In this document: in pieces, positions 3,740 to 56,202 of the stretch | Numbering within the stretch: position 1 is the first letter of the stretch | Layout of the letters: each line of letters begins with the position of its first letter | DNA from: Nakamurella antarctica | GTDB lineage: Bacteria; Actinomycetota; Actinomycetes; Mycobacteriales; Nakamurellaceae | Assembly: GCF_003860405.1 (NCBI RefSeq) | Contig: NZ_CP034170.1 | Location: forward strand, 2,232,001 to 2,296,000 | DNA: 64,000 nt | Direction of reading: 5' to 3' | Translations under genes and position numbers: made by a program | Notes under the pieces: model-generated | Seen by the model: the letters and a program-made list of their open reading frames with translations, nothing else | What the model was told of the DNA's origin: nothing | Database searches by the model: none

Positions 3740-3858
3740 CTTTCTTCAGCAAAACGCCGCCCTTCGGCCCCTCCGCGCAGACGCGCAGGCATCCACTCAC
3801 TGATGAGGACTGATACACGTTGCTGCGCCATCGATTCGGACTGCTGAGCGCGTCCGCT

Positions 3859-6110
3859 CTAACTCGTTTTGGTAGCAGCCCTTTTGATGCTCTTCGCCAC
3901 CATCGCAAGCACATCAGCGCCGAACGAATCCAACTTCACTCGTCCGATGCCAGGGATGGCAAGCAGCCCACCGTCGTCGAGAGGGCTGCGCTCGGCGATG
4001 GCCTGCAGGGTGACGTCGGTGAATATGACATACGGCGGCACCGACTTTTCGCTCGCCAACGTTCTGCGCCACGCCTTGAGTTCGTCCAGTAGGTCCGGAT
4101 CTGCTGTGGAAGGACAATTCGCGCACCGGCCGGTCTTGATTTCGGCGGGCGTGTTGAGTGGCCCGGTGCAGAATCGGCAGCGACCAGGTGCTGCGCGGCC
4201 ACCGGCTTTGCTCACCGGTGGCGACTCAGGCGCCAGACCGTTCAGAAACCTACTGCGCCGTCTCGTTTTTCGGCCACCCTCGGATCGGGACAGCCCCAAG
4301 AGAGGAACAGCTGTTGCTTGGCCCTGGTAACGCCGACATAAAAGAGGCGCCGTTCCTCCTCGACTTCCTCCGGGGTCTCAGCATGCTGGATAGGCATGGT
4401 TCCGTCCGTGAGTCCGACGAGGAACACTGCCTCCCATTCCAAACCTTTGGCTGCATGCAAAGAGGCGAGGGTCACGCCTTCAACGGTGGGCGCGTGCTGC
4501 GCTTCTGCCCGCTGATTCAGTTCGGCAACTAACTCCCCCAGCCCTGCTTGCGGATCGGCGTCGGCGAGGCCCTCTGCCACCCCAACGAGCGCGACCAACG
4601 CGTCCCATCGATCGCGCAGCGCGCCCGGCGCTGGCGCGGTGTCGGTAAGACCGACCGTTTGCAGCACGCGCTGGGTCAGCGGCACCAACGTGCTCGGCGC
4701 ACCCGCGACGAGAATCCGCGCGGGGCTCACGCGGGCGGTGCCAATCGACGTACCGGCGCCTGCTGACCTATCCGTACCGGAAAGCGCAGAGTCGACGGCT
4801 GCCACCTGCCCGCTGCTTGCCAGTCCCGCAGAAACTGACCCTGCAGCGTCTAACCCTGCAGCGTCTAACCCTGCAGTGTCTGAACCTGCAGCAACTGATT
4901 CCGCAGCCTGGCGCAACGCCATCATTGCTTGGCGAACTTCGGCCCGCGCGAAGAAGCGTTCACCACCCCGCACCAGATATGGCACACCCGCTGTCGCAAG
5001 TGCTTGCTCAAAGACCTCGGATTGCGCGTTAATCCGGTACAGCACGGCGATCGAGGCAGCCGACATGCCCGCAGCGATCATTGCTTGGCACCGCTGAGCT
5101 ACGGTGCGGGCCTCAGTGGCCTCATCGGGGTGTTCGGAGTAGACCGGCTCCGGACCGTCAGGCAGGACCGGCCGTAACCGTAGACGCAACTTTGCCGAAG
5201 GTCCTGTGGCACCCGCGATCACCCGGTTGGCAAGGGTCACCACCTGCGGTGTGGAACGGTAATCGCGTTCAAGACGGACAATCGCGGCGTGCGGATATTT
5301 CCGATCGAAATTCAACAGGTATTTTGGAGACGCTCCGGCAAAGGAATAGATGGTCTGGTTCGCATCGCCCACCACGGTCAATTGGTCGCGGCCGCCCAGC
5401 CAGGTATCTAAGACCCGCTGCTGCAGTGGCGTCACATCTTGGTACTCGTCGACGACGAAACACCTATAGCGGGAACGGAATTCGCGAGCCACAGCTTCGT
5501 CCGCATCAAGAGCACCGCACATATTCAGCAGGATGTCGTCAAAATCGAGTTGTCCCGATGCGTCCTTGGCCTGTTCATAGGCGTCGAATGCTGCGGCGAT
5601 GACGGCGGCGTCAAGCGGGGTGTCCCGCTTGACCTTCGCGACCCCGGACACGTACGTGCCGGGAGTCAGCAATGTCGCTTTGGCCCACTCGATCTCGCTG
5701 GCTAGGTCTCGCAAAGTTGCCACGTCGGTGCCGGTGCCTACTCGACGCGAGGCAACCGCCACCAGCCGAAGTTTCTGCTCGATAACGGGTCGGACCTGCT
5801 CGCCCGTGACCTTCGGCCAGAAATAGCGAAGCTGCCGGAGCGCCGCGGCGTGAAAAGTTCGGGCTTGAACTCCCGGAACGCCGAGATCGCGCAACCGAAC
5901 CCGCATCTCGCCCGCGGCTCTCGTCGTGAACGTCACAGCAAGGACTTCGCCCGCCGGATGCGCTCCCGATTGCACGAGCTGCGCAATGCGATGGGTGATG
6001 GTCCGCGTCTTTCCCGTTCCAGCCCCGGCAAGGACGCACAGCGGGCCGGAGGGAGCAAGAACCGCAGAGCGTTGCTCGTCGTCCAAGCCAACTAATGGGT
6101 CCGAAATCAT
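3859..6110 (-). CDS. uvrD2: UvrD2-type superfamily 1 helicase, with an apparent 1-nt frameshift
   Basis: The N-terminal part (6110 to about 4297) is a UvrD/PcrA helicase: Q-motif DDEQRSAV, Walker [16 protein letters not shown] Walker [14 protein letters not shown], and a late [20 protein letters not shown] and [12 protein letters not shown]. The frame then runs into TGA at 4242. The expected C-terminus lies in another frame from about 4294 to 3859: a CxxC-x14-CxxC tetracysteine (CRFC...CANC) and an HRDC domain (LDELKAWRR ... [13 protein letters not shown]), as in mycobacterial UvrD2. One additional G in the GGGG run (plus-strand cccc 4294-4297) would join them as ...[11 protein letters not shown].... 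Five 15-bp repeats add an Ala/Gly/Ser-rich linker near residue 425. ATG 6110 ([13 protein letters not shown]) is preferred over ATG 6128. UvrD2 is a 3'-5' DNA helicase of DNA maintenance. Confidence 0.85.
4831..4905. repeat. Five 15-bp tandem repeats inside uvrD2
   Basis: Units of the type gcgtctaaccctgca repeat five times in phase (4831, 4846, 4861, 4876, 4891). The second and third are identical and the rest have diverged. On the coding strand each adds five residues (AGLDA-like), making an Ala/Gly/Asp/Ser-rich linker between helicase motifs. Confidence 0.85.
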
Positions 6111-42238: not shown

Positions 42239-42250
42239 TCCTACAATAGG
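42239..42250. promoter_or_regulatory. Operator-like site TCCTACAATAGG before the sugar importer
   Basis: The element contains the inverted half-sites CCTA-caa-TAGG and ends 2 bp before the -35 of the importer promoter. A related CCTATATCCTATG lies in the spacer/-10. TCCTACA recurs at other promoters of this cluster, so it is a candidate site of the GntR/FCD regulator. Confidence 0.4.
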
Positions 42251-42252
42251 GG

Positions 42253-42281
42253 TTGCAACTACATTTCCTATATCCTATGCT
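42253..42281 (+). promoter_or_regulatory. Promoter of the sugar ABC importer operon
   Basis: -35 TTGCAA (42253-42258), 17-bp spacer, -10 TATGCT (42276-42281), about 75 bp before the GTG start of the binding-protein gene. Confidence 0.6.
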
Positions 42282-42357
42282 TAGACCACGTCTTTGTGGC
42301 ATCGCCATCGAGCCGATGCCACCTCCCGTCCATGGAATGTCTTCGAAGGAGAAGCAC

Positions 42358-43704
42358 GTGATCACACAGAATCGGCGAGGGGTAGGCATTGGTGCCGCCC
42401 TCATTGCTGCTGCACTCGCTATCACCGCGTGTAGCTCTAGCTCAGATAGTGCCGGGGCTAAGGGTTCCGACGCGGCGGGTCCGAGCGCCAGTGCCAGTGC
42501 AGCGAGTCCGGTAACCATCAAGGTTCAAAGTTGGCTGGTCGGAGACGACCCCACCACTGTCGGCCCCACCCTGAAGAAGATTGACGCAATGTTCATGGCG
42601 GCCAATCCTGGTGTCACGATCGACCATGTCGGTCTTCCATTCGACAACTATTTCACCCTGCTCCGTGGCCAGGTCGCAGCTAAGGCCGGTCCAGATGTCG
42701 TCATGGCGTACAACTCCTCGGCAACCCTGGAGTTCCAGAAAGGCCTCCTAGGGCTTGGTTCGTACTACACCGCGGAAGACCGCAAGGGGTTAGTGGGCTT
42801 CCAATACGGCACCGACACTCAGAAGATCGACGGCGAGCCTTACGTGACTCCGATCCTGAGCGAGGGAAACCTGCTGTACGTCAACAAAAAACTTGTGAAG
42901 CAGTGCGGGGCCGATCCTGAAAAAATTCCCCGCGAATGGGACGGTTTTGTCAAGGTTTTGGAGCAGTGCAAAGCCGCCGGCGTCGTTCCCATGAACCTCG
43001 GAATGAAGGATGGCTACGCAATCTCCTGGTACACCCAGAATGCCACTGCCCAACTGCTGAGCCAGGACGAGTTGTTGAAGTCGGCCGATGGCAGCGTTCC
43101 GATGAACAATCCCGGAAACGTGTGGGCACTTAACGCAATTCAGGACTTGCAAAAACGCGGTCTGTATACCCCTGGCGCAGAGGGAATCACTGTCTTCTCC
43201 GAGGCACGCAATAACTTCGCGGCAGGCAAAGCAGCATTCCACTTCGGCAACTTGAGTGAGGGCGGCCAGCTGTACAAGAAGCCGCTGGGCGCCGATCTGG
43301 GCGTTGCGCTGTTCCCCAAGATTCCGGGCGACAAATATGGGGACTTCATTGTTGCTGGGCCCGGTGTTGGCTGGGCAGTGACAAAGTGGGCGAAAAACCC
43401 TGACATGGCGGCAAAGTACATCAAGTTCACCCAGAGTCAAGAGCCTCAGCAGATGCTGTTCGACCAGGGTGGAGAGCTGCCTGCCAATAGCGCAACCGCG
43501 CCGAAGAGTGACTACGCACCGGTGCAGCAGACAATTGATTGGCTCGCACTTCCGGATAATCACCTGGGCATGGTCATGTCAACAGAAGCCGGCGCTGCTA
43601 TCTGGAAGAACGCAACGCTCCTGTTGTCCGGCGACCTCAGTGCTGATGATCTGATCGGCCAGATGCAAGCGGCTCAAGATCTCGTCAATAAGACTAAGAA
43701 GTAA
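42358..43704 (+). CDS. Sugar ABC transporter substrate-binding lipoprotein
   Basis: The start is GTG 42358 with GGAG 6-9 bp upstream, giving a signal peptide with lipobox ITAC (GALIAAALAITACSSSS). A family 1 solute-binding protein follows (VTIKVQSWLVGDDP, AKAGPDVVMAYNSS, YVTPILSEGNLLYVNKKLVKQCG, FTQSQEPQQMLF). It would capture a carbohydrate outside the membrane for the two permeases that follow. The frame opens earlier, at 42253, but those residues lack sense. No ATPase gene is present, so a shared MsmK-type ATPase is likely. Confidence 0.9.
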   Translation: MITQNRRGVGIGAALIAAALAITACSSSSDSAGAKGSDAAGPSASASAASPVTIKVQSWLVGDDPTTVGPTLKKIDAMFMAANPGVTIDHVGLPFDNYFTLLRGQVAAKAGPDVVMAYNSSATLEFQKGLLGLGSYYTAEDRKGLVGFQYGTDTQKIDGEPYVTPILSEGNLLYVNKKLVKQCGADPEKIPREWDGFVKVLEQCKAAGVVPMNLGMKDGYAISWYTQNATAQLLSQDELLKSADGSVPMNNPGNVWALNAIQDLQKRGLYTPGAEGITVFSEARNNFAAGKAAFHFGNLSEGGQLYKKPLGADLGVALFPKIPGDKYGDFIVAGPGVGWAVTKWAKNPDMAAKYIKFTQSQEPQQMLFDQGGELPANSATAPKSDYAPVQQTIDWLALPDNHLGMVMSTEAGAAIWKNATLLLSGDLSADDLIGQMQAAQDLVNKTKK

Positions 43705-43728
43705 CTTCTTCGTGCGGAAGGACGGGTA

Positions 43729-44637
43729 GTGGCGATCCAGATACGTCGAAGCAGCAGAGGCGTCAAAGAGACTTCCCGATGGGAGTGGCTCTTCATCCTT
43801 CCTCTTCTTGTGGGCATCACTCTGGTCTTTATCGCTCCGAGTTTTGAGGCGATCGCCAAGTCCTTCACGAGATGGGACCCTGGGTACGACAGCCCGTTTG
43901 TTGGGCTGGAGAATTACCAGGATGCGCTCACAGACCCGTCCTTCCGCACGATCATCTTCAACCAGTTCTATTTCCTTTTAGCGGTCCCGCTGTGGACATT
44001 CTTGCCGCTGTTCTTCGCTGCTGTCCTGCGAAAAGGAGTGTCCCGACCAGCTATCTTCCGGTCGATCCTGTTCTTCCCCTCGATCGTGTCGGCCGCAGTG
44101 ATGGGCTTGCTCTTCGTACAGATTCTCGCGCCCCTCGGTCCCCTCAACGAAGCGCTGCGGGCGATCGGTTTGGACTCGCTGACCAGAGGGTGGCTTGTCG
44201 ATTCGAGTACCGTCAAACCGGTCATCGTGGCGGTGATCGCGTGGGCCACTCTCGGCACGGGTGTGGTGATTTTCTCCGCTGCTCTCAGTGCCGCCCCGCC
44301 TGATTTGTTCGAGGCTGCCGAGCTAGACGGTGCAGGTTTCTGGGCTCAATTCCGCTATGTCATCATCCCAACGTTAAAACCGACGATTCAAGTCTGGGCG
44401 GCAATTCTCTTCATCACCGTGTTTGTTTCGATGTTTCCGTGGATCTACACGCTGACGAGAGGAGGACCCGGGGATTCGAGCGGCACCCTCGACTTCCGCA
44501 TCTATGAAAGCGCTCTCGTCTTCGGCAACTTCGGGATCGCAGCGGCGCAGATGGTCATCATGCTCGTCATCGTCGTCGTGCTGGGAGTCGTGGGAGCTCT
44601 TGGTGGGCAAGGCTGGCAGCGTCGGAGGAATCGATAA
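43729..44637 (+). CDS. Sugar ABC transporter permease (MalF/UgpA type)
   Basis: 302 residues with six hydrophobic segments and the EAA loop EAAELDGAGFWAQFRYVIIPTLKP, which contacts the ATPase. GTG start 43729 follows a GGAAGGA site. It forms the importer with the next permease. Confidence 0.92.
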   Translation: MAIQIRRSSRGVKETSRWEWLFILPLLVGITLVFIAPSFEAIAKSFTRWDPGYDSPFVGLENYQDALTDPSFRTIIFNQFYFLLAVPLWTFLPLFFAAVLRKGVSRPAIFRSILFFPSIVSAAVMGLLFVQILAPLGPLNEALRAIGLDSLTRGWLVDSSTVKPVIVAVIAWATLGTGVVIFSAALSAAPPDLFEAAELDGAGFWAQFRYVIIPTLKPTIQVWAAILFITVFVSMFPWIYTLTRGGPGDSSGTLDFRIYESALVFGNFGIAAAQMVIMLVIVVVLGVVGALGGQGWQRRRNR

Positions 44638-44639
44638 TT

Positions 44640-45533
44640 GTGACAACAGCAACAGCACAAGGCGGCGTCCCGATCGAATCGGCCCCTAAAAAACCGCGCC
44701 AGTCGCTCAAAGGCCAGATGAGGGCATGGGGAACCGTGGCGTGGCTATGGGTGGCCATGATCCCATTCCTCTACCCCTTCCTTTTTATGGTCGTTACCGC
44801 CCTGCGCACTCCGAACGACTACCTACAAAACTCGGTCAGCATCATCCCCTCTGCCGTCACCTTCGAGCACCTATCGCGGGCTTGGACCGCCGGCGGGCTC
44901 GGATTAGCGATGGGCAACTCCCTCTACACCTCTGTTATCGGCGTGCTGGTGTCCTGCGCGCTCGCCACCACTGCTGGATTCTTCTTCCTGCGCCACAACA
45001 GTCGGCCCGCGAAGTTTGTTCGCATTGCGACGTTCGCCAGCCAAGCGCTGCCAGCTCCTGTCTGGCTCATCCCCCTCTATGTTGCAGCGAGCGACTGGGG
45101 GGTTGCAGATCAATTGTGGTTCCTGGGGATTCTCTACGGTCTGGTCGCGGCTCGTTTCGGGGCTTACCTCATGTACGCCTATTACCGCGGATTGCCCACG
45201 GAAATATTTGAAGCGGCCCGGGTGGATGGCGCGTCAACCGTCAAGCAGTTCACGGCTATTGTTTTGCCGCTGAGTTTGCCTCCATTGGCCACACTCGCGG
45301 CGCTCACCTTTGTCTGGTCTTGGGGTGACTTCCTTCTCGCACTCGTGTTTACGGGTGCAAGCGGCAATCCCACCGTCACGGTGGCTGCGGCAAGCCTCGT
45401 CGGCCAGTACAGCACAGGACAGCAAACACAAGCTGCCGCACTAGTTATCAGCATGATTCCGATGCTGATCGTATTCGCCTTCGCCCAGCGGTTCCTTGTC
45501 CAAGGCGCGTTGGCAGGCAGCGTCAAGTCGTGA
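44640..45533 (+). CDS. Sugar ABC transporter permease (MalG/UgpE type)
   Basis: 297 residues, six membrane segments, EAA loop FEAARVDGASTVKQFTAIVLP. GTG start two bases after the previous stop. Its end overlaps the aminotransferase start by four bases, so that enzyme is translated with the importer. Confidence 0.92.
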   Translation: MTTATAQGGVPIESAPKKPRQSLKGQMRAWGTVAWLWVAMIPFLYPFLFMVVTALRTPNDYLQNSVSIIPSAVTFEHLSRAWTAGGLGLAMGNSLYTSVIGVLVSCALATTAGFFFLRHNSRPAKFVRIATFASQALPAPVWLIPLYVAASDWGVADQLWFLGILYGLVAARFGAYLMYAYYRGLPTEIFEAARVDGASTVKQFTAIVLPLSLPPLATLAALTFVWSWGDFLLALVFTGASGNPTVTVAAASLVGQYSTGQQTQAAALVISMIPMLIVFAFAQRFLVQGALAGSVKS

Positions 45534-46714
45534 CCGCGACTCGTACGCAGCCACTCAATTCTCCACCCCCCGGGTTGACCGACATCGAGGCGATTCGGGC
45601 GCTCTACCGGCTAGACCCAGACGTGGTCCATCTCAACCACGGGTCCTACGGCGCCGTACCGCAGTTCGTAGTCGCAGAGCGCCGCCGCATCGAGGACCGC
45701 ATCGACGCCAATTCCAACCGCGAGCTGCGGTATCTGCTCGAATCGGAGTTCCACACCACTCGGCACACGTTGGCCGCGTTTTGCGGCATCGACCCCGGCG
45801 GTCTAGCGATGGTGGAAAATGTCACGACGGGCGCGAGCGCTGTTCTTGAATCCTTCCCTCTGCGCGCATCCGATCAGGTAGTCGTCCCCGACGATCTCTA
45901 TCCGTCCGTGCACATGGCAGTGCAGCGGGCTTGCTCTCGCGCAGATGCTGAGCTCGTGTCGGTACCTACCCCCTTCCTGACACCCGTGAACGAGTGCGTC
46001 GATCGGCTTCTGAGCAAGGTCGGTTCGCGGACGCGTCTTGTCGTCACAGACCACATCAGCACCATGTCTGCGCGCGTGTGGCCGGTCCACGAATTGGGGT
46101 CCACACTCGCGGACCGAGGGGTTGCCTATCTCGTGGATGCCTCTCACGCGCCCGGTCCGATCGAGCACCCAGCCAAGGACCTTCCCTGCGACTTCTGGAT
46201 CGGCAGCTTTCACAAATGGGTAGGGGCTCCGCGCGGCTCCGCGGGTCTCTGGGTGGCGCCCCAGTGGCGGTCGTCCATGCAGTCCCCAGTTATCTCCCAC
46301 GCCAATGGATGGAACTATCCGCAACTCTTCGACTGGAGCGGCACGCATGACGTCACGCCGGCGCTGGCAACGCCGTCGGCCATCGCCTTCCTGGAGTGGC
46401 TGGGCGGATCAGTGCTGTGGCAGCGCTCCGTATCTGTGGCCCGGACGGCCAACGACTTCTTGCATCACCGCTGGGGTGGAAGGGTTCTGGACCCGTCTCC
46501 CGCCATACCGATGATTGTGGTGGAGGTCCCCGAAGCAGTGGTGGCACCCGAGCAACTGGGGAATGCTGCGCGGTGGTTGAGCGACGTGGCGAAGGTAGAA
46601 GCCGTCCTGTTCCCGATGTACGGATCGGGGTGGGCGAGGCTCTCGACCCCGGTGTACGCCTGCGAGGCCGATATTGCGAAGTTCGCCGAGGCCCTCGAGG
46701 CGTACCCGGGCTAA
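45530..46714 (+). CDS. Class V aminotransferase-like PLP enzyme
   Basis: 394 residues, resembling isopenicillin-N epimerase/cysteine-desulfurase-type enzymes: VHLNHGSYGAVP start, MVENVTTGASAVLESF, LVDASHAPG and the PLP lysine in FWIGSFHKWVGAPRGSAG. The reaction could be transamination, epimerisation or elimination. Being coupled to the importer suggests an amino sugar or amino acid as part of the substrate, which is inference. It converges on the oxidoreductase gene with 18 bp between. Confidence 0.8.
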   Translation: MTATRTQPLNSPPPGLTDIEAIRALYRLDPDVVHLNHGSYGAVPQFVVAERRRIEDRIDANSNRELRYLLESEFHTTRHTLAAFCGIDPGGLAMVENVTTGASAVLESFPLRASDQVVVPDDLYPSVHMAVQRACSRADAELVSVPTPFLTPVNECVDRLLSKVGSRTRLVVTDHISTMSARVWPVHELGSTLADRGVAYLVDASHAPGPIEHPAKDLPCDFWIGSFHKWVGAPRGSAGLWVAPQWRSSMQSPVISHANGWNYPQLFDWSGTHDVTPALATPSAIAFLEWLGGSVLWQRSVSVARTANDFLHHRWGGRVLDPSPAIPMIVVEVPEAVVAPEQLGNAARWLSDVAKVEAVLFPMYGSGWARLSTPVYACEADIAKFAEALEAYPG

Positions 46715-46732
46715 GTCGGCCGCGGCATCTGT

Positions 46733-47806
46733 TTAATCCGCCAGGGTCAGCTGCTCGATGAACACCTTTTCTCCGTCGCGGAAGCTGGACTCTTGGATCG
46801 CCGCCACTATTTCAACGGTGCGCGCTCCAAGCTCCGCGGGAGAATTATTTTCCACGTCCCGACCCAGAGCCAGATCAACAAACCTATTGAGAGGTTCGAC
46901 GCATTGATACGCTCCCTCGTTCGCTAGCGGGGAAGCCGACCACACGACACCGTCGTGACGCCGAATTTCGGCCCGTTCTCGTTCGACATCGAGTAGTAGA
47001 ACGCCTTCGCTTCCGAAAAGTCGAATGTCAACCTGGAACTTGTCGTCGTCAGGCAGCGTGCCAGCGCCAGCGAGCGTTCCCTGAGCTCCGTTATTGAAGG
47101 CGACGGTTGAGCAGTTGTACAGATCCACCCCGGCCCCCGGCCCTGAGGCCAGTGCTCGGACAGAAACTCCTCGCAGGTCGGTCAACCACAGTGCCAGCGC
47201 CACCAGATGGCTCAATTGTCCGTGAGCGTAGCCCCCGCCTTGGAGCGGGTTTTGCCACGTTCCTGGGTCCGGCGATGCGATGGAGGGAGTCCATTGGGAC
47301 GGCACGGTTCCAGCGCCGGAGAAGAACTGCTTGGTCGGTGAGGCCATAAATGCCTGCACGTATTCGACTTCTCCGATTCCGACATCGTGAAGTGCGCGGC
47401 GGGCTTCGACGATGAAAGGCGCATAGTTCCATCCAAAAGGAACCAGCACATTCTTTTCTCTACGTTCTGCTTCCTTCACGATTTTCCAGGCATCAAGCGC
47501 GGTCAGGGTCATGGGCTTCTCGCACAGGGTGTGGGCTCCTGAGGCGAGCGCGGCCATCGTGTGTTCGAAGTGCACGTGATGCGGTGTCGACACGATCACC
47601 GCGTCTAAATCTTCCTTGAGCAAATCCCGATAGTCGGTGAACGCCGTCTGAAACCCGAATTCCTTTTTGACGGTGTGCAATATTTCTTCATCCGGTCGGA
47701 CTACCCCGATAAGTTCCACATCGTCCCGGGCAGCCAGCAGAGGGAAATGATTGGTTGTAGCCCACCACCCGGCTCCGATTGCGCCAACCCGCAAGCGTCG
47801 ACTCAT
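46733..47806 (-). CDS. Gfo/Idh/MocA-family oxidoreductase
   Basis: 357 residues. NAD(P)-binding start RVGAIGAGWWATTNHFP, then IVSTPHHVHFEHTMAAL and the signature CEKPMTLT with the catalytic-region lysine. Such enzymes oxidise or reduce hydroxyl groups of sugars, inositols or sugar acids. It is the last gene of the minus-strand arm; its ATG overlaps the MBL gene stop (ATGA). Confidence 0.85.
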   Translation of the reverse strand: MSRRLRVGAIGAGWWATTNHFPLLAARDDVELIGVVRPDEEILHTVKKEFGFQTAFTDYRDLLKEDLDAVIVSTPHHVHFEHTMAALASGAHTLCEKPMTLTALDAWKIVKEAERREKNVLVPFGWNYAPFIVEARRALHDVGIGEVEYVQAFMASPTKQFFSGAGTVPSQWTPSIASPDPGTWQNPLQGGGYAHGQLSHLVALALWLTDLRGVSVRALASGPGAGVDLYNCSTVAFNNGAQGTLAGAGTLPDDDKFQVDIRLFGSEGVLLLDVERERAEIRRHDGVVWSASPLANEGAYQCVEPLNRFVDLALGRDVENNSPAELGARTVEIVAAIQESSFRDGEKVFIEQLTLAD

Positions 47807-48789
47807 GACGCCACCCCTGCCACAGAGCGCACCGTGGGGGGAGTGGTGCTGTGGTCTATCTCCAACTCACCGCGTGCCTGCATCCGTTCCACGTGTCCGT
47901 AGACGGGTAGTCCCAGATACGGCCAAGCGGTTGGGTCCCACGGCCCGAACAGCGGAGCAGCACCATTGATGATGCTGGTGAGGGTCTGCGGTCCTTCCGC
48001 CAACTGGGAATCAATGGAACTCTGCAACTCGTCTACGAACTTGGTGGTTTCGTCGAGGAAGTCAGTGGCCGCTTCAGCGTCCATCACCCGGTAGTGGGAA
48101 GTAAGAAGCAGGGCCGGCGCGAACTTGCGCACGAGCGCCACCGTGGCCAAGTAGTCATCGAGGTAGCGGTAGGTCGGCGGAAAGGCGGGCTCCCCGTTCG
48201 CTAGCGGCACCGTCGCCCCCAACACTGCATCACCGATGACGAACGCACGGCTACGCGGATCCCAGATGCTCACGCTCCCATACGAATGGCCCGGAGTGTG
48301 CACGAGGCAGACCTTCCAGTCTTCGCTGAGGCGAAAGGTTTCCTCCCCGCGCATCCCCACATCTACCCGCGTCAATTGCGTGGCGGCGCGTATACCGGCT
48401 TTGCTTTCCTCGGTCTCGTCGACTCCATGACAGGCCAACTCGCCATACCGCTCCACAATCAGAGCCTCTACAGACTCCGTCTGGTGACGATCGGCCTCGC
48501 CAGCCACAAATGTCGCGTTCGGAGACCACTCACGAAACGCAGCGTTGCCGCCCGTGTGGTCAAAATCGCAGTGTGTCGACACCACATATTTGAGGCTCTC
48601 GGGCGTGACACCCAGTGACTCGAGCGCGGGAATGAAGACCTCCCGTGCGCTGCTGTCGAAACCGGTGTCGACGATCAGGCTTGCCTCCTCTCCGCGAAAG
48701 AGATAGCTCGCGATGAACCGCTCGCCGATCGGCGCGACGATCCGCATCAAGCCGGGTGCAACCTCAGTCGTATTCGTCTCGTTCGTCAT
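47803..48789 (-). CDS. MBL-fold metallo-hydrolase
   Basis: Metallo-beta-lactamase fold with the metal motif STHCDFDHTGGN (HxxxDH, the first His of HxHxDH replaced by its local sequence THCDFDH), VHTPGHSYGSVSIWD and a late SHYRVMDAEA. The substrate may be a lactone or a thioester. In this cluster hydrolysis of a CoA thioester or sugar lactone is plausible. ATG 48789 (MTNETNTTEV) has AAAGGA upstream; the frame opens at 48915. Confidence 0.82.
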   Translation of the reverse strand: MTNETNTTEVAPGLMRIVAPIGERFIASYLFRGEEASLIVDTGFDSSAREVFIPALESLGVTPESLKYVVSTHCDFDHTGGNAAFREWSPNATFVAGEADRHQTESVEALIVERYGELACHGVDETEESKAGIRAATQLTRVDVGMRGEETFRLSEDWKVCLVHTPGHSYGSVSIWDPRSRAFVIGDAVLGATVPLANGEPAFPPTYRYLDDYLATVALVRKFAPALLLTSHYRVMDAEAATDFLDETTKFVDELQSSIDSQLAEGPQTLTSIINGAAPLFGPWDPTAWPYLGLPVYGHVERMQARGELEIDHSTTPPTVRSVAGVAS

Positions 48790-48829
48790 CACGCGGTGTC
48801 CTTTCGGCTGAAACCGTTGGTAGGTAGAA

Positions 48830-49618
48830 CTATTCGCCGGTAAATTGTGGAGGGCGCCGCTCTGCGAACGCTGCGCGCCCCTCAGCGGCATCCTGTGTGC
48901 CGTGCTCGTACACAAAGGTGTCGTTCTCGTAACCGAGACCTATCTCAAGACTTGTGCTCATGGATACGCGAACTAGGTGCTTGGCATACTGCGCCGCGAT
49001 GGGCGCATTGGCTGCGATCCGCGCTGCGAGAGCATCCGCTTCGCTCAGGAGTACTTCCGGTTCAACCACCCGCTGGACTAGCCCCATCGCGCAGGCTTCT
49101 GCCGCAGAAAGTCGGTCACCGGTAAGAAGTAATTGCAGCGCATTCCCGTAGCCGATAATCCGTGGCAGAAGCTGGGTCGCCCCTGCTCCCCCGTGCCAGC
49201 CGAGTTTGATTTCGGCAGCGCAGAAGGTTGACGTCGGAGTGGCCAGGCGAATGTCGCTGAACAACGCCAGTTCAAGTCCACCGCCGAACGCATAGCCGTC
49301 GATGGCGGCTATCACCGGCTTACGGACGTTTCCGATGGCGCGCGCGTAATCCACCCGATTACGAAGCTGCCAACTTGTGCCGTACTGATCGAGGGCACTC
49401 ACATCGCTGCCTGCGCAGAAAGACTTCGGTCCGGTTCCCGTGAGCACCACCACCCGTACGGCGTCGTCGTCATTGACCTGCCGAACCAACTCGGCCACAC
49501 GAACACCCATCGCGGGCGTGATGGTGTTGAGTTTTGCAGGGCGGTTGAGCGTTATTCGCGCTACGTGCTCACTGGTGTGCTCGTAGATCACCAGATCTTC
49601 GATGGATTCTTCGGTCAT
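48830..49618 (-). CDS. Enoyl-CoA hydratase/isomerase (crotonase) paralogue 1
   Basis: 262 residues. Crotonase fold: ARITLNRPAKLNTITPAM, oxyanion-hole segment FCAGSDVSALDQYG, GYAFGGGLELAL, and AAEIKLGWHGGAGATQLLPR with the first conserved Glu. The second catalytic Glu position reads LQLLLTG, so a simple hydratase reaction is uncertain. It closely resembles the crotonase at 52247, including the unusual WQLRNR-DYAR and the AFAERRPP tail. The ATG overlaps the stop of the glycoside hydrolase gene. Confidence 0.88.
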   Translation of the reverse strand: MTEESIEDLVIYEHTSEHVARITLNRPAKLNTITPAMGVRVAELVRQVNDDDAVRVVVLTGTGPKSFCAGSDVSALDQYGTSWQLRNRVDYARAIGNVRKPVIAAIDGYAFGGGLELALFSDIRLATPTSTFCAAEIKLGWHGGAGATQLLPRIIGYGNALQLLLTGDRLSAAEACAMGLVQRVVEPEVLLSEADALAARIAANAPIAAQYAKHLVRVSMSTSLEIGLGYENDTFVYEHGTQDAAEGRAAFAERRPPQFTGE

Positions 49619-50643
49619 TGCGTGCCTTCCAATCCGGCTCGCAGGCGTTCGCCTGCAAATCTCAAAATGCTGCCCTGACCCCACACGTTGGTTTCTGTAG
49701 GGAGAGTTCGGTACATCTGATCGTCGTCGACATCTGCGGCACCGGCCCAGGTGCAGGCCGACGTTCCCCAAAAGGATCCGTCCGCATCGATTCGCCCGGC
49801 GACTGCTTGCCATGCGCGGTCAGCCGCTTCGGCAAATTCCGGACCCAGCAACCCTGCCGCGACGCCCGCGGTAAATGCGGCGCCGAAGAAGGCTGTCGCC
49901 GAGGATTCCAGGTAAGCCTCGCGATCATGTAAAAGCGTTCGCCACATTCCTGCGCAGTCTTGTACTGACAGCACCGCGTGTGCCAGCTCAGCAAAGTCTT
50001 GCTGCGCCCAAAGTGGCGGCTGCTCCATCAATCGCAGGGTATCGATCATTCCGAGCAGGGCCCAGCCGCTGCCACGGCCCCACCCATAGCCGTGGCCCAC
50101 TCCCGTTCCCGTGTCAAAACTATGACGCAGGAAAGGGCCCCTCGGATCCCGCAGCACGTCCATGTGCGACTTCCATGCTTCGAGCGCCTCGTCCCTGCGC
50201 TGCTCGCCTCCCAGCGCCGCGAGGAAGGGCGGCACGTGATAAATCGAGTCCACCCACACCGTATGTCGGTATTGCGGCTGATCGGGTCGATACAGCGGAG
50301 CTCCGTCCGGCGAGCGCGGGACGTTGGCTAACCACTGTGCAAGGCGCTGGGCCGAAGGGTGATCGCGCCCGACGGCCTTCACCAGCGCGAGCCCCGGGGT
50401 GAGGTGGTCGGTCCAGGACGGCGTTTGCTCGGTCCAGTTTTGTAAGAAGCGGAGGGCATGCTCTCCAGATGCCTCATCCGCTGCCAGCTCGCGAGCTTCT
50501 TGAAGCCCGTCGATCGCAATCCCGTCTCCCCAAAACCAGATCGAGAAGTCGTATCGACGGGTTCGCTCCGCGCATCGCACGAGGACCTCAGTCGCTGCTA
50601 GCGGGGCAGGTTTGCTCATACCCATTTCATCCTTGCTCATCAT
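49615..50643 (-). CDS. Glycoside hydrolase family 88/105-type unsaturated glycuronyl hydrolase
   Basis: 342 residues, an (alpha/alpha)6-barrel type protein. Motifs WGDGIAIDGL, YRHTVWVDSIYHVPPFL with a conserved Asp, and GHGYGWGRGSGWALLGMIDTL, the hallmark of YteR/unsaturated rhamnogalacturonyl hydrolases. They cleave the delta-4,5-unsaturated uronic acid from oligosaccharides made by lyases. There is no signal peptide, so it acts on imported sugars. First gene of the four-gene minus arm, with several possible ATG starts within its first 25 bases. Confidence 0.8.
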   Translation of the reverse strand: MMSKDEMGMSKPAPLAATEVLVRCAERTRRYDFSIWFWGDGIAIDGLQEARELAADEASGEHALRFLQNWTEQTPSWTDHLTPGLALVKAVGRDHPSAQRLAQWLANVPRSPDGAPLYRPDQPQYRHTVWVDSIYHVPPFLAALGGEQRRDEALEAWKSHMDVLRDPRGPFLRHSFDTGTGVGHGYGWGRGSGWALLGMIDTLRLMEQPPLWAQQDFAELAHAVLSVQDCAGMWRTLLHDREAYLESSATAFFGAAFTAGVAAGLLGPEFAEAADRAWQAVAGRIDADGSFWGTSACTWAGAADVDDDQMYRTLPTETNVWGQGSILRFAGERLRAGLEGTQ

Positions 50644-50950
50644 GGTGAACCTACGAACGGCCGGTTATCCCCGCGTTCGCTGGGCGTGCGCTACGTTATG
50701 TAGGACTAAATACGGTCTCATTTCGAATGTCAACCCTTTCCTCACCGACCTGCGCGATCACAAGTCTTGGCTCGAGGATCTGGGAACAGCCTCTGACGCG
50801 ATTGAGCCCGCGCCTTGGTGTTTCGCGCCGCACAAAATGTAGGAGGAGTCAGCCACACATGAAACAGAACGCATCGCTCAACAACCCCCGGCTCGCGGCG
50901 CCATCGTCACGACTGGAGTTGCCAACCACCCGCGTAGCACCGGCCGCGTC
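50644..50950. other. Divergent control region of the two catabolic arms
   Basis: About 300 bp between the glycoside hydrolase (-) and the binding-protein-like gene (+). It holds a near-ideal minus promoter, two TGTAGGA elements (50699-50705 and 50838-50844) and a short plus-strand ORF (50860-50954). Confidence 0.55.
50699..50733 (-). promoter_or_regulatory. Promoter and operator-like site of the glycoside hydrolase arm
   Basis: Minus strand: perfect -35 TTGACA (50733-50728), 17-bp spacer, -10 TTTAGT (50710-50705), running directly into TCCTACA (50705-50699). The element also contains CTAC-gttat-GTAG (50691-50703). Binding there would block the polymerase. Confidence 0.55.
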
Positions 50951-50954
50951 ATGA
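50860..50954 (+). CDS. Possible 31-codon leader ORF
   Basis: ATG 50860, 13 bp after an AGGAGG-like run, to TGA 50954, which overlaps the next start (ATGA). The peptide is MKQNASLNNPRLAAPSS-like and polar, with no domain. Its overlap suggests translational coupling to the following gene. Confidence 0.35.
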
Positions 50955-52090
50955 AAGAACTGCGCGGAATTACCTGGACACACGAGCGCGGCTTCGCGCC
51001 ACTGAAGCGACTCGCGGAATTGGCACTGCTCGATGGCCCCCTGCGGGTGGACGCGCCGCCAATCGTCTGGGAGGCACAAGATCTCGCCGGGTTCGAGAGC
51101 AGGTCGATTGCGGAACTGGCGAGAGAATACGACCTTATTGTCCTCGACCATCCGGGCCTTGGCCGGGCATGGAGCGCGGGCGCATTGGAGCCACTACAAG
51201 AATTGTCAGGACTGACCCCGGCAGATCTCGAGGGCCGCTTCGTGACCGGGAGCCTCGCGTCATATCACTACAGGGGCGCCCAGTGGGCGATTCCGATCGA
51301 CGCTGCCACGCAGGTATCCGCGTGGGCGGATTGCCAACCGGCCGCCACCTGGGCCGAGGTCATCAGCCGTCAGGACGATCGGATGGCCCTTCCCACAAAA
51401 TCGCCACACGCGATGCTTACTTTTTTGGGAATCGCCGCGGCGGTGAGCCCAGGGTTCGAGATGAGCGCCCACGAACTCGTCCCCGCACGCACCGGCGAGA
51501 ACGCAATGGAAATCTTTGGGAACATGGTGCGCTCCATGCCTTCTGCCTCATTGGACATGGATCCGATCAACATTCTCGAGAAGATTTCTGATGGTCAGCT
51601 AGATGCCTGCCCTCTTCTTTACGGCTATGTAACCTACGCCCGGCCAAGCAGCCGCAAACGCATCATCACGTTCGCTAACGCACCAGGCACGCACAGCGGC
51701 GCCCCGGGTTGCATTCTCGGCGGGACAGGTTTGGCGCTCTCCCGCCACAGCGCCAACAAGGAAGGAGCACTCGCGCATCTTCGTCAGATTTCGAGTGAAA
51801 CAGCGCAGCAGGAAGTGTTCGGGGCGGCTGGCGGCCAGCCCGCCGACGCCACGGTGTGGGGTGAATCAAGCCTGGACCGCGAATCGAACGGGTTCTACTC
51901 GGCCACCTTGCGCAGCCAATCCGGGAGCATGGTCAGGCCCCGTTATGACGGGTGGATCGACTTTCACCACGATGCGTCGACATTCCTCCTGACGAGCGCA
52001 CGTGATAATCGCCGCCCCCCGGAGGTCGTTGCCCGGCTGAACAAACTCCATCGCGAAGCGATTCAATCCTCGAGTTCGCCGGTGCTCTAG
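50951..52090 (+). CDS. Solute-binding-protein-like protein without signal peptide
   Basis: 379 residues. The body looks like a family 1 extracellular binding protein: YDLIVLDHPGLGRAW, GAQWAIPIDAATQVSAW, KRIITFANAPGTHSGAPGC, LGGTGLALSRHSANKEGALAHL. But it starts MKELRGITWTHERGFAPL, with no signal peptide or lipobox, and no alternative start supplies one. I recall proteins with this start near CoA-transferases and crotonases in proteobacteria. It may bind a ligand in the cytoplasm; no function is established to my knowledge. Confidence 0.75.
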   Translation: MKELRGITWTHERGFAPLKRLAELALLDGPLRVDAPPIVWEAQDLAGFESRSIAELAREYDLIVLDHPGLGRAWSAGALEPLQELSGLTPADLEGRFVTGSLASYHYRGAQWAIPIDAATQVSAWADCQPAATWAEVISRQDDRMALPTKSPHAMLTFLGIAAAVSPGFEMSAHELVPARTGENAMEIFGNMVRSMPSASLDMDPINILEKISDGQLDACPLLYGYVTYARPSSRKRIITFANAPGTHSGAPGCILGGTGLALSRHSANKEGALAHLRQISSETAQQEVFGAAGGQPADATVWGESSLDRESNGFYSATLRSQSGSMVRPRYDGWIDFHHDASTFLLTSARDNRRPPEVVARLNKLHREAIQSSSSPVL

Positions 52091-52095
52091 GCACA

Positions 52096-52114
52096 TTTTC
52101 CTGCCGGAGGAAAA
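52096..52114. terminator. Small hairpin after the binding-protein-like gene
   Basis: TTTTCCT-GCCGG-AGGAAAA, a perfect 7-bp stem with 5-nt loop, 5 bp after the stop codon. Short and AT-containing; a weak terminator or 3' end stabiliser. Confidence 0.35.
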
Positions 52115-52141
52115 GTCGACGGGGCCACGGCGAGTTGCTCC

Positions 52142-52177
52142 TTGTGGAGACCCCACGGGTCGTGTTAACTCCTACAT
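52142..52177 (+). promoter_or_regulatory. Promoter and operator-like site of the second crotonase arm
   Basis: -35 TTGTGG (52142-52147), 17-bp spacer, -10 TTAACT (52165-52170), running into TCCTACAT (52170-52177) and a following GTAG (52183-52186). The layout is the same as at the glycoside hydrolase promoter. Confidence 0.5.
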
Positions 52178-52246
52178 ATGACGTAGTGCCTGCAGCGCAA
52201 GCCACGAAATCAAGTAGACCCGTGCCTTTACTGTCGGAGGAATTAC

Positions 52247-53032
52247 ATGACATTTACGGAATTACCGGACGAGCTGAAGGCAGACATCGTTGGTCCTGTC
52301 ATCACCATCACCATCAACCGACCGCAAAAGCTCAACACCCTCACTCCCGCGATGGGCCGCGCACTCAAGCAACTCGTCCTTGAAATAAACGAGAACGAGC
52401 AGGTCAGGGTCGTCATCCTGAAGGGAGAGGGCGAGCGCGCCTTTTCTGCTGGCAGCGACGTGTCGGTCCTCGATGAGTACGGCACTAATTGGCAGCTGCG
52501 GAACAGGACGGATTATGCGCGCGAGATCTGGGCGATCAGAAAGCCGGTCATTGCGCAGATCCGGGGGCACTGCGTGGGCGGCGGCCTCGAGCTGGCACTA
52601 CTGAGCGACATTCGGGTTGCTGACCACACTGCTTCCTTCGCCTCCGGCGAGATCAAACTCGGCTGGCACGGCGGCGCCGGCAACACCCAGCTCCTCCCGC
52701 GAACTATTCCACTGGGCGGCGCGGCGCTCATGCTCTTCACCGGAGATCCGGTGTCGGCCGCGGAAGCTCTTCGGCTTGGGTTGGTCGATGTGCTTGTCGA
52801 GCCCGATCAACTAGATCACACCGTGGCCGACATCGCCGAGCGGATTGCACGGAACTCGCCCATCGCGGTTCAGTTGACGAAACACTTGATTCGAACCTCG
52901 CAATCAACATCGCTCGAGGTTGGACTAGCTCACGAGAATGACCTCTTTGCATACTGTTTCACCACCAACGACTCTCAAGAAGGTCGCGCCGCATTCGCGG
53001 AACGTCGACCGCCGAACTTCGCCGGAAACTGA
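52247..53032 (+). CDS. Enoyl-CoA hydratase/isomerase (crotonase) paralogue 2
   Basis: 261 residues. ITITINRPQKLNTLTPAM, FSAGSDVSVLDEYG, CVGGGLELALLSDIR and SGEIKLGWHGGAGNTQLLPR define the crotonase fold. The second catalytic-Glu position reads ALMLFTG, as in paralogue 1 where it is also not Glu. Strong RBS GGAGG before ATG 52247. Followed by the CoA-transferase, which could supply its CoA-ester substrate. Confidence 0.9.
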   Translation: MTFTELPDELKADIVGPVITITINRPQKLNTLTPAMGRALKQLVLEINENEQVRVVILKGEGERAFSAGSDVSVLDEYGTNWQLRNRTDYAREIWAIRKPVIAQIRGHCVGGGLELALLSDIRVADHTASFASGEIKLGWHGGAGNTQLLPRTIPLGGAALMLFTGDPVSAAEALRLGLVDVLVEPDQLDHTVADIAERIARNSPIAVQLTKHLIRTSQSTSLEVGLAHENDLFAYCFTTNDSQEGRAAFAERRPPNFAGN

Positions 53033-53068
53033 TCCGCAAGCCCCTTCAGAACGGAAGAACTTTCGACC

Positions 53069-54262
53069 ATGAGCACTAACGTATCTCGCCCTCTTGATGG
53101 GCTTAGGGTGATTGATCTGTCCCAAATGCTGGCGGGACCAATCTGCGCCATGCGGCTCGGAGATCTGGGTGCCGATGTGATCAAGGTCGAACCGCCCGCT
53201 GGTGAGTGGACCCGCACGCACCCCTTCGCCAACGCCCGCGTCAATGGGGAGTCGACCGCGCTCCTAGGGCTCAACAGGAACAAGCGCAGCGTGGTGATCA
53301 ATGTCAAAGATCCCGAAGCGCTTGAGGTGCTGCACGAACTGATCGGCACAGCGGATGTCGTGTTGCAAAATTTCCGAGTAGGGACTGCCGAGCGCTTGGG
53401 CATTGGGTACGAGCAGATAGCGGAGCGGCACCCACATATCGTTTACTGCCAGATCAGCGGGTACGGCGAGGACGGCCCGTACCGAGATCGACCGGGACAG
53501 GACCTCCTCGTACAAGGCGTTTCCGGCTCGATGTGGTCGGTCGGATCACGTACCGATCCTCCTCTGCCCGGGGCATTGTGGGCGGTGGATGCGATGACCG
53601 GTTACCAGGCTGCAATCGGCATTTTGTCCGCCATCCGGGAGCGCGACAAGACGGGGCTCGGGCAAAAGGTATCGGTCGACATGTGGTCTGTGGTCATGGA
53701 TTGCCAGACTCAGGAGTTCACTACGTACTTGAACTGCGACATTTTGCCCGAGCGCAGCGAGGAGCAATTTGCCCACGCCTGGACCAACCCGCCTTACGGA
53801 ACTTACAAGACCAAGGACAGCTACATCGTGCTCTCCCAGCTGCCCATTGATGTGCTCGGCGAAGCCGTTGACGACGACCGATTAAGGGCAATCAGCTCAT
53901 GGGACGAGGCAGAGGAAAGGCGGGATGAGATCCGGCGCATTCTTCTTCAGATCATGCCTACTCGCACCACGGCCGAGTGGCTAGAGGTGTTGTACGCCGC
54001 CAAGCTGTGGGCGGGCCCTGTCTACACCTATGCCGACATCGAGGCTGATCCCCATGTCAAAGCCCGCGGAATGATTTCCACAATTTCGCATCCCACAATC
54101 GGAGAATTAAGGCTTCCGTCTGTACCCATTCGCTTCTCTCGAAGCACCGCAGACATTCGAGTCGCCCCCCCTTTGCTCGGGCAGCACACCGAGGAATTGC
54201 TCGAAGAGATCGGCATCTCCGCGGCTACCAGGGACGCTCTCCGAGAACGTGGTTCGATCTGA
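53069..54262 (+). CDS. CaiB/BaiF-family (class III) CoA-transferase
   Basis: 397 residues: LDGLRVIDLSQMLAGPICAMRLGDLGADVIKVE, NRNKRSVVINVKDPE, VLQNFRVGTAERLGIGY, and the catalytic Asp in RPGQDLLVQGVSG. It moves CoA between carboxylic acids. In this cluster it would activate an acid intermediate for the crotonase(s). The gap to the crotonase is 36 bp. Confidence 0.93.
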   Translation: MSTNVSRPLDGLRVIDLSQMLAGPICAMRLGDLGADVIKVEPPAGEWTRTHPFANARVNGESTALLGLNRNKRSVVINVKDPEALEVLHELIGTADVVLQNFRVGTAERLGIGYEQIAERHPHIVYCQISGYGEDGPYRDRPGQDLLVQGVSGSMWSVGSRTDPPLPGALWAVDAMTGYQAAIGILSAIRERDKTGLGQKVSVDMWSVVMDCQTQEFTTYLNCDILPERSEEQFAHAWTNPPYGTYKTKDSYIVLSQLPIDVLGEAVDDDRLRAISSWDEAEERRDEIRRILLQIMPTRTTAEWLEVLYAAKLWAGPVYTYADIEADPHVKARGMISTISHPTIGELRLPSVPIRFSRSTADIRVAPPLLGQHTEELLEEIGISAATRDALRERGSI

Positions 54263-54379
54263 GCCAGCGCAAGAGAGTTGCATACTTTCAGGAAGTCCTT
54301 CGCTACACCCAGCATCTGACCTACACCGGTAACACAGGCAGCACCCGCGCAGCATCTATGGAAAGCTGGTAATAGCATC

Positions 54380-55345
54380 ATGAGTCACGTTCTCACTGGG
54401 GTTGCACCAGTCGCCCCGACGGTCTTCGCCGAGGATGGAAGCTTCGACCCGGCAGGGCAAAAGCGAGTCGCTCGGTATCTGATCGATGCCGGCAGTGATG
54501 CTATTTGTTTGCTGGCGAACTATTCGGAACAATTCTCCGTGACCGACTCCGAACGCGATGCCATCATCGACCACACGATGGAGGAGGTGGGCGCGGAAGT
54601 TCCAATAATGGTTACGACGAGCCACTTCAGCGCTCGCATAGCGGTGGAACGTTCGGTGGACGCTCAGCGCCGCGGTGCCAGCGTGGTCATGCTCATGCCT
54701 CCGTTTTACGGCGCCACCATGTCGGTGGACGACCAAAGCGTCTTCGACTACTTTTCCCGCGTCGCGGATTCAATTGACATCGACATCATGGTCCAAGATT
54801 CTCCGTTGAGTACCACAAAGCTCTCCGTCGAACTGTTGACGCGGCTGGCTAGAGAAATACCTCAGATTCGGTACGCCAAAATTGAAGTACCCCGGACTGC
54901 GGAGAAGCTGCGGGCACTCACAGTGGGAGCGGGAGACAAACTCCCCGGGCTATTCGACGGCGAGGAGTCGATCACGCTCATTCCAGATCTTCATGCCGGG
55001 GTTGTCGGAACGATGTGTAGCGCCGTCATTCCCGACCGGCTTGGCGGCATTGTGCGCGCATTTGCCGCTGGGAATGTAGAAGGTGCGACCCAGGAATGGG
55101 AGCAAATTCTTCCCCTCATTCACTACGAAAATAGGCAATGTGGACTTCTGGCCGCTAAGCAGCTGCTATTCGAAGGCGGAATCATCACCAGCCCGGCAGT
55201 CCGGGCACCTATACAGCCCCTTCAGGATTGGAAGGTGCGCGAGCTCATGGCATTGGCAACGAAGAATGACGCACTAATCCTGCGGTGGGCAAAAAAAGGC
55301 GGTCGCCACCCCTCGATCCACCCCCAGCCACGCGGCCGAGCCTAG
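54380..55345 (+). CDS. DapA/NanA-family aldolase or dehydratase
   Basis: 321 residues, a class I aldolase barrel: VAPVAPTVFAEDGSFDPAGQ, CLLANYSEQFSVTDSER, VVMLMPPFYG, and the Schiff-base lysine in IRYAKIEVPRT. The NYSEQF in place of the usual GxTGE site resembles sugar-acid enzymes such as 2-keto-3-deoxyarabonate dehydratase more than true DapA. It would split or dehydrate a 2-keto-3-deoxy acid. 117 bp follow the CoA-transferase; a CCTACACCGG lies there at 54320. Confidence 0.82.
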   Translation: MSHVLTGVAPVAPTVFAEDGSFDPAGQKRVARYLIDAGSDAICLLANYSEQFSVTDSERDAIIDHTMEEVGAEVPIMVTTSHFSARIAVERSVDAQRRGASVVMLMPPFYGATMSVDDQSVFDYFSRVADSIDIDIMVQDSPLSTTKLSVELLTRLAREIPQIRYAKIEVPRTAEKLRALTVGAGDKLPGLFDGEESITLIPDLHAGVVGTMCSAVIPDRLGGIVRAFAAGNVEGATQEWEQILPLIHYENRQCGLLAAKQLLFEGGIITSPAVRAPIQPLQDWKVRELMALATKNDALILRWAKKGGRHPSIHPQPRGRA

Positions 55346-55403
55346 GGATGGCGCGAAACCTAGGCACTCTTGACGCTTTCATGAAGCGAAATGCGACACG
55401 TCC

Positions 55404-56165
55404 TCACGCTGGGTCGGGCGTTCCAGCATCTCTTGCCCACCCGCGGCCAAGCACGGATTCAATGTCCGATTGGCTCGCTATTAGGAGCCTGCTCATTGCC
55501 TTCTGCGCTTGGACGGCTGATCTTGCGGCAATGGCATTAGCGATTTCCAGATGCTCCTCAGCCCTGGATCCGTGCCCCATAGACACCGTGACCTCTCGGC
55601 TGAGCCGCAGTCCTACTTCAATGGCCGCGCCGATTTGCATGAGGAGATCGTTATGCGCGGCCGCGAATAGCGCCCGGTGAAACTGCATGTCTACCTCAAT
55701 GAATGTCGCCGCGTCACCCTCGACCAGTTTCATTTCTCGGGCAAGGGCAGAAATGAGGCTCACTTCGGAGTCTGCCGCCCGAACCGCTGCGTGAGCGCAG
55801 GCAGCTGGCTCGATCATCGCCCGCAGGTCTGCAACGTCGCGCAAAAGCTTCAGGTCGATCTCCGCAGTCGATCGCCAAGAAAGAACCTCCGGATCCAGCA
55901 TGTGCCATTGATCAGAGGGGAGCACCTGGGTGCCCCTCTTCGAACGGCTTTCCAGAAGCCCTTTGGAGGCCAGCACCCTGATGGCTTCGCGAATCACCCC
56001 ACGGCCGACGAGCAACTCGGCGACGAGATCCTCTTCCCTGGGAACAATTGAACCGACGGGGTATTCCCCGAGGACAATCCGCCGACCTATCATTTCCACT
56101 ATCTGCGTGTGGGTACGTGATAGCCGCGGCCGATCAGCACCCTCGGCGAGCGGAGTGTCGTTCAT
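55404..56165 (-). CDS. GntR/FCD-family transcription regulator
   Basis: An N-terminal winged helix (GSIVPREEDLVAELLVGRGVIREAIRVLASKGLLESR) and a C-terminal FCD domain (RAMIEPAACAHAAVRAAD, DMQFHRALFAAAHNDLLMQI) typical of acid-binding regulators (FadR-like). ATG 56165 (MNDTPLAEG) has AAAGGAG upstream. Convergent with the DapA-like gene. A CCTACAAAAGG lies 27 bp before its start, so it may control itself and the cluster; the ligand would be a pathway acid. Confidence 0.9.
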   Translation of the reverse strand: MNDTPLAEGADRPRLSRTHTQIVEMIGRRIVLGEYPVGSIVPREEDLVAELLVGRGVIREAIRVLASKGLLESRSKRGTQVLPSDQWHMLDPEVLSWRSTAEIDLKLLRDVADLRAMIEPAACAHAAVRAADSEVSLISALAREMKLVEGDAATFIEVDMQFHRALFAAAHNDLLMQIGAAIEVGLRLSREVTVSMGHGSRAEEHLEIANAIAARSAVQAQKAMSRLLIASQSDIESVLGRGWARDAGTPDPA

Positions 56166-56191
56166 AACCGCTCCTTTGCTCATCAAAGTTC

Positions 56192-56202
56192 CCTACAAAA
56201 GG
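56192..56202. promoter_or_regulatory. Operator-like site before gntR
   Basis: CCTACAAAAGG, with CCT/AGG inverted ends, lies 27 bp before the gntR ATG and resembles the CCTACA elements at the other cluster promoters. Confidence 0.35.

Follow-up and report, generated by a model that had tools for sequence, protein, structure and literature searches.

How does a bacterium remove water from a sugar acid? In textbook pathways this step is performed by metal-dependent enzymes of the enolase type or by iron-sulfur enzymes of the IlvD type. A cluster of 13 open reading frames (ORFs) in Nakamurella antarctica raises the question of whether coenzyme A (CoA) esters may serve the same purpose. The cluster occupies positions 42,337–56,186 of the window, i.e., the 64,000-nucleotide stretch covering positions 2,232,001–2,296,000 of contig NZ_CP034170.1, and combines an ATP-binding cassette (ABC) sugar importer and a GH88-type hydrolase with a family III (CaiB/BaiF) CoA-transferase and two crotonases (ECH1 and ECH2). 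Pfam and NCBIfam profile searches recovered all domains named for these ORFs, and their location, in an initial annotation of the stretch. The cluster is tentatively interpreted as a CoA-dependent sugar-acid dehydration pathway, in which a CoA ester would be formed and dehydrated to a 2-keto-3-deoxy acid; the chance of this being correct is estimated to fall slightly short of even. Somewhat less confidence is placed in the broader proposal of a widespread route, in which the sugar acid would be held as a CoA thioester, a crotonase or a MaoC pair would eliminate water, and an internalized sugar-binding protein would be the substrate-holding subunit.

The ORF at 50,951, previously described as cytoplasmic and binding-protein-like, lives up to this description. 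Its product, here referred to as SBPL, has no match in Pfam or NCBIfam. The AlphaFold model (predicted local distance difference test score, pLDDT, of 94) matched the ABC sugar-binding proteins LpqY and SmoF with Z values of 35–37 (37.1 for LpqY-trehalose, with a root-mean-square deviation of 2.5 over 363 residues), and profile comparison likewise retrieved sugar-binding proteins. LpqY and SmoF thus share the predicted fold, whereas only SBPL lacks a signal peptide and adjoins a CoA-transferase gene. For SBPL and its relatives, neither a signal peptide nor a lipobox or hydrophobic leader was found; the proteins begin a few residues before the first strand, which starts at residue 4 in SBPL. 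Annotated plasmid records label the protein merely as a solute-binding protein. In some SBPL clusters (L040, L044, L045, L050, L055 and L056), a second family with solute-binding-protein fold (approximately 397 amino acids, without obvious signal peptide) was observed, and the one member tested (L056) matched Pfam SBP_bac_1.

SBPL was detected in 21 of the 395 class genomes, with three copies in the N. antarctica genome itself, and a CaiB-type gene adjoins it in most of 20 wide neighborhoods. When a single genome of each species was scanned, at least 588 SBPL loci were obtained. The 80 loci kept originate mostly from Alphaproteobacteria, besides some Burkholderiales, Nonomuraea and one acidobacterial metagenome-assembled genome (MAG); carriers include Mesorhizobium, Rhizobium and Sinorhizobium megaplasmids. 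The module family spans soil, plant-associated and small-genome bacteria. A CoA-transferase gene was located near SBPL in 97 of 101 loci, although these and the following counts are not independent because Mesorhizobium is over-represented. Gene calls in the fetched loci were made within this analysis, and start positions may be wrong.

Within 6 kb of SBPL, MaoC was encoded at 65 of these 101 loci, a crotonase at 23, neither at 13 and both at none, and for this reason the two hydratase types appear interchangeable within the module. When the range is widened to 10.5 kb, one locus (L055) encodes both MaoC and a crotonase, the latter being an outlier to the module type. In the CaiB and SBPL trees, sequences from crotonase loci and those from MaoC loci form largely separate groups. 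Inside the crotonase clade, a Bordetella locus (L116, 9986–11119 and flanks) carries MaoC in place of the crotonase, as expected if both hydratases perform the same job. The short MaoC form features the motif D..P.H and the long form another residue at the His position, which suggests that both forms are likely to build a heteromeric hydratase. Long MaoC proteins (170–190 amino acids; L062, L063, L090, L095 and others) possessing the Asp but no catalytic His adjoin a short form with both residues.

The catalytic Asp174 of the CoA-transferase was kept in 114 of 114 sequences, and the equivalent of Glu144 in all 34 crotonases, together with a G-S-D oxyanion motif in which T replaces S once. In contrast to canonical enoyl-CoA hydratases, which feature both Glu144 and Glu164, the window crotonases have the former without the latter: ECH1 possesses the Glu144 equivalent and a Gln at the second site, whereas in ECH2 Glu135 corresponds to Glu144 of the rat enzyme and Leu161 occupies the Glu164 site. 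Regarding the metallo-beta-lactamase (MBL) fold enzyme, the motif H-C-D-x-D-H is invariant in five homologues, and the solved structures closest to it in profile comparison include B3 beta-lactamases, acyl-homoserine lactone lactonase, 4-pyridoxolactonase and the PqsE thioesterase.

Enzymes encoded next to the CoA genes point to clusters centered on 2-keto-3-deoxy sugar acids. The family assignment of the DapA-type ORF stood, and its nearest relative could be refined to L-2-keto-3-deoxyarabonate dehydratase, which scored far above every other DapA-family structure. A Gfo/Idh/MocA homologue (about 50% identical) adjoins the CoA-transferase in L033–L035. Crotonase-type loci often encode an FAH-type relative of 2-keto-3-deoxy-D-arabinonate dehydratase together with an aldehyde dehydrogenase (ALDH), and MaoC-type loci the mutarotase RhaM, a fuconolactonase-like amidohydrolase, an RraA-like aldolase or an FAH protein resembling 2,4-didehydro-3-deoxy-L-rhamnonate hydrolase. 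Taken together, the neighbors cover the remaining reactions of oxidative sugar pathways, with a mutarotase (RhaM or DUF4432), dehydrogenases of the SDR, Gfo and AKR types, the fuconolactonase-like amidohydrolase or a 7-bladed lactonase, and the keto-deoxy-acid enzymes. Enolase-superfamily or IlvD sugar-acid dehydratases were absent among the 13 window ORFs, the IlvD genes of this genome being located elsewhere (596,531 and 1,680,958), and no enolase or IlvD gene was found within 10 kb at 18 of 23 crotonase-type loci. Separately, genes resembling DUF1537 kinase, RuBisCO-like and Asp/Glu-racemase types, as read from the sequence, adjoin the module in L030 (3027–6395).

According to the proposed pathway, the importer would take up a sugar or small oligosaccharide, from which GH88 would free the monomer for oxidation by the Gfo/Idh enzyme. 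The MBL enzyme would open the resulting lactone or cleave a thioester at a later stage. The CaiB-type transferase would load CoA onto the carboxylate of the sugar acid, and, as a thioester acidifies the alpha proton, the crotonase pair could then remove the beta hydroxyl in the manner of CaiD acting on carnitinyl-CoA, giving an enol that represents a 2-keto-3-deoxy acid. The DapA-family enzyme would convert the latter towards 2-oxoglutarate semialdehyde, while SBPL might hold the sugar part in the cytoplasm or hand it over to the transferase or hydratase. The substrate of the CoA step may be an aldonic acid derived from a neutral sugar, an option favored because the window encodes a keto-deoxy-pentonate dehydratase homologue; alternatively, the order could be reversed, with the CoA step preceding GH88.

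Two known systems resemble parts of this scheme. In Escherichia coli, the family III CoA-transferase CaiB and the crotonase CaiD process carnitine, a polar beta-hydroxy acid, as CoA ester. The window shares both enzyme types, including the catalytic Asp of the transferase, but carries a sugar importer, SBPL, GH88 and a keto-deoxy-acid enzyme instead of carnitine genes, and its transferase scored 105 bits against the 413-bit cut-off for L-carnitine CoA-transferase. With the Weimberg-type non-phosphorylating oxidative pentose pathway, the window shares a dehydrogenase, a candidate lactonase and, by homology, the L-2-keto-3-deoxyarabonate dehydratase, and its relatives also share the FAH-type dehydratase and ALDH. 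However, CoA-transferase, crotonases and SBPL are found in place of the IlvD or enolase sugar-acid dehydratase.

The hydrolase arm is likewise conserved and recurs elsewhere in the N. antarctica genome, in a sister cluster (L153) that encodes CaiB (52% identical), a crotonase (53%), GntR, an Rbs-type importer, MBL, GH88, an SDR, 2-keto-3-deoxygluconate (KDG) kinase, 2-keto-3-deoxy-6-phosphogluconate (KDPG) aldolase and a divergent enolase gene. Its MBL gene (3718–4095) has lost the middle part (125 versus about 328 amino acids); the MBL step may therefore be unnecessary there or covered by the MBL enzyme of the window. Using both GH88 proteins of this genome as queries, eight further genomes, all of other actinobacteria, were retrieved at E values below 1e-90, and CaiB, crotonase and MBL genes were located near GH88 in all eight, which count as genomes and not as independent events because L192 closely repeats L191. 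Weaker GH88 relatives (E values of 1e-14 to 1e-34) had no CoA genes nearby. As the sugar and CoA arms co-occur in other genomes, the constant separation that would have refuted the initial proposal does not apply. Two crotonases are encoded in six of seven small-genome members of the GH88 clusters. Since ECH1 and ECH2 both group in the clade of the second crotonase of GH88 clusters, and the window CaiB with the CaiBs of these clusters, the window is classified from these trees as a GH88-type cluster additionally holding SBPL and Gfo. In L186 (3883–7784), GH123-like and DUF5107 proteins adjoin the GH88-CaiB cluster.

Several observations weigh against the dehydration pathway. The role of GH88 in it is only loosely placed. 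Of 71 MaoC-type loci, 36 have an enolase-family gene in their vicinity, as do most GH88-type clusters, and the one enolase tested from the latter exceeds the galactonate dehydratase cut-off. Unless it served another purpose, a CoA step at such loci would be superfluous. The notion that the module always replaces an enolase or IlvD dehydratase was dropped in view of these MaoC-type loci. Moreover, Glu164 is kept in just 5 of 34 crotonases, which accordingly may not be ordinary hydratases. Finally, no 2-oxoglutarate semialdehyde dehydrogenase is encoded in the window cluster; a homologue (44%) of the ALDH of L034 is located at genome position 879,002.

Among the alternatives, a uronide route survives best, albeit as an unlikely one. 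In this case, the transferase would activate the C6 carboxylate of an oligosaccharide tipped with a saturated uronic acid, the crotonase would remove the 4-hydroxyl, MBL would free the thioester and GH88 would cleave the 4,5-unsaturated uronide. The sugar released in this way and the deoxy-keto acid would pass to the keto-deoxy-acid enzymes. GH88/105 enzymes require an unsaturated uronide (PMC8511951), and the 13 ORFs encode no lyase or alternative origin of the 4,5-unsaturation. The restriction of close GH88 relatives to the neighborhood of CoA-transferase, crotonase and MBL genes, and the presence of KDG kinase and KDPG aldolase in L153, L190, L191 and L192, are also in line with this route. 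Furthermore, the same step is known in CoA-free form: P29_PDnc of the Formosa agariphila ulvan locus dehydrates a terminal uronic acid to feed GH105, apparently independently of a cofactor (PMC8511951), and would differ from the window cluster by the CoA activation proposed here. The established unsaturated uronide pathway (GH88/GH105, KduI, KduD, KdgK, KdgA) shares the GH88-family hydrolase with the window, and the kinase and aldolase with L153, but in the window CoA-transferase, crotonase and MBL genes adjoin GH88 in a cluster lacking lyase and KduI, and the missing KduI, of which no counterpart was seen among the 13 ORFs, also speaks against a uronide route. Further points against it are that most module loci lack GH88, and that the downstream enzyme of the window resembles a pentonate (C5) keto-deoxy dehydratase, not one of a C6 route. 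The window GH88 shows distant similarity to GH105 structures, including an unsaturated 3S-rhamnoglycuronyl hydrolase. Its nearest curated model, a beta-galactosidase for which it scores far below the cut-off, likewise argues against the uronide route.

It is improbable that the CoA genes serve, separately from the sugar route, to degrade an acyl group or aglycone carried by the imported compound. The solved structure nearest to the window transferase, succinate-hydroxymethylglutarate CoA-transferase, would suit this explanation, but mutarotases, dehydrogenases and lactonases are prominent among the conserved neighbors, and esterases, thiolases or acyl-CoA dehydrogenases are not. Marginally less probable again is a CoA-dependent epimerization or re-hydration of the sugar acid, comparable to carnitine racemization, that would feed an ordinary enolase-type dehydratase. 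Crotonase and MaoC hydratases work in both directions, and loci containing the module and an enolase-family gene would be accounted for; the window cluster and the 18 crotonase-type loci lacking a nearby enolase or IlvD gene argue against it. A chance neighborhood of unrelated transport and CoA genes is very improbable and already refuted for the core, which, judged by its retention across several actinobacterial families, Pseudomonadota and the acidobacterial MAG, is a conserved set, even though the aminotransferase behaves as such a neighbor would. Close homologues of this class V enzyme were found in 53 of 395 class genomes, no other cluster genes were located near them in the two neighborhoods examined (L155 and L156), and the gene did not turn up in SBPL neighborhoods. 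It was thus rejected as a core gene and looks like a passenger. Of the initial proposal, the association of CoA-transferase and crotonases with a sugar-catabolic gene set is retained, whereas the membership of the aminotransferase is not.

The 13 ORFs are arranged in three blocks, comprising importer and aminotransferase (+), GH88-ECH1-MBL-Gfo (−) and SBPL-ECH2-CaiB-DapA (+), followed by GntR (−) (Table 1). By eye, the ORFs before the cluster appear to be heme-synthesis genes and the one after it ComEC-like. The previously assigned cluster start at 42,239 falls on a motif that precedes the first gene; the gene itself begins at about 42,337. This motif, TGTAGGA, occurs seven times in the 64 kb, four times upstream of cluster genes, and TGTAGGR 14 times compared to 5.5 expected; five of the TGTAGGR boxes lie at the cluster, with one each preceding the importer, ECH2 and GntR and two in the GH88/SBPL region. 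As the motif was picked after inspection, these boxes give only a hint of a candidate GntR/FCD operator and of joint control of the operons. A GntR-type gene is also present in L153, L030, L033–L035 and most of L186–L193.

Table 1. Positions of genes and candidate operator boxes of the N. antarctica cluster within the window.
Feature	Position	Strand	Basis or remark
TGTAGGA box, candidate operator, upstream of importer operon	42239..42245	-	motif count
Lipoprotein sugar-binding protein, ABC importer	42337..43704	+	Pfam SBP_bac_8 / SBP_bac_1; lipobox-like ITACSSS; start from codon model
ABC sugar permease A	43729..44637	+	Pfam BPD_transp_1
ABC sugar permease B	44640..45533	+	Pfam BPD_transp_1
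Class V pyridoxal phosphate enzyme, probable passenger	45530..46714	+	Pfam Aminotran_5
Gfo/Idh/MocA oxidoreductase, candidate sugar dehydrogenase	46733..47806	-	Pfam GFO_IDH_MocA
MBL-fold hydrolase, candidate lactonase or thioesterase	47803..48789	-	Pfam Lactamase_B
Crotonase ECH1	48830..49618	-	Pfam ECH_1
GH88/105-type hydrolase, without signal peptide	49615..50643	-	Pfam Glyco_hydro_88, 124 bits
TGTAGGA box, GH88/SBPL divergent promoter region, inverted repeat CTAC-N5-GTAG	50699..50705	+	motif count; second box at 50838
SBPL, sugar-binding-protein fold without signal peptide, motif GxTWxHxRG...DHP	50951..52090	+	predicted structure; no Pfam match
TGTAGGA box between SBPL and ECH2	52170..52176	-	shares CTACGT..TATGTAGGA with 50699 box
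Crotonase ECH2	52247..53032	+	Pfam ECH_1
Family III (CaiB/BaiF) CoA-transferase	53069..54262	+	Pfam CoA_transf_3, 354 bits
DapA-superfamily enzyme, close to L-2-keto-3-deoxyarabonate dehydratase	54380..55345	+	Pfam DHDPS; 301 bits to 3fkk / 7c0c
GntR/FCD regulator	55404..56186	-	Pfam GntR + FCD
TGTAGGG box upstream of GntR gene	56191..56197	-	motif count

The passages retrieved from a fitness-data paper (PMC9007349) by keyword do not mention the gene set. No description of the gene set or route was found in the open-access literature, subscription journals lying mostly outside this search, and the designation as undescribed is provisional. If the CoA-dependent reading is correct, the thioester route would represent a third solution for sugar-acid dehydration, and a function would be provided for a whole family, marked by SBPL at no fewer than 588 loci, that is annotated only as 'extracellular solute-binding protein'. 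Moreover, this reading gives predictions that are testable in genetically tractable rhizobia.

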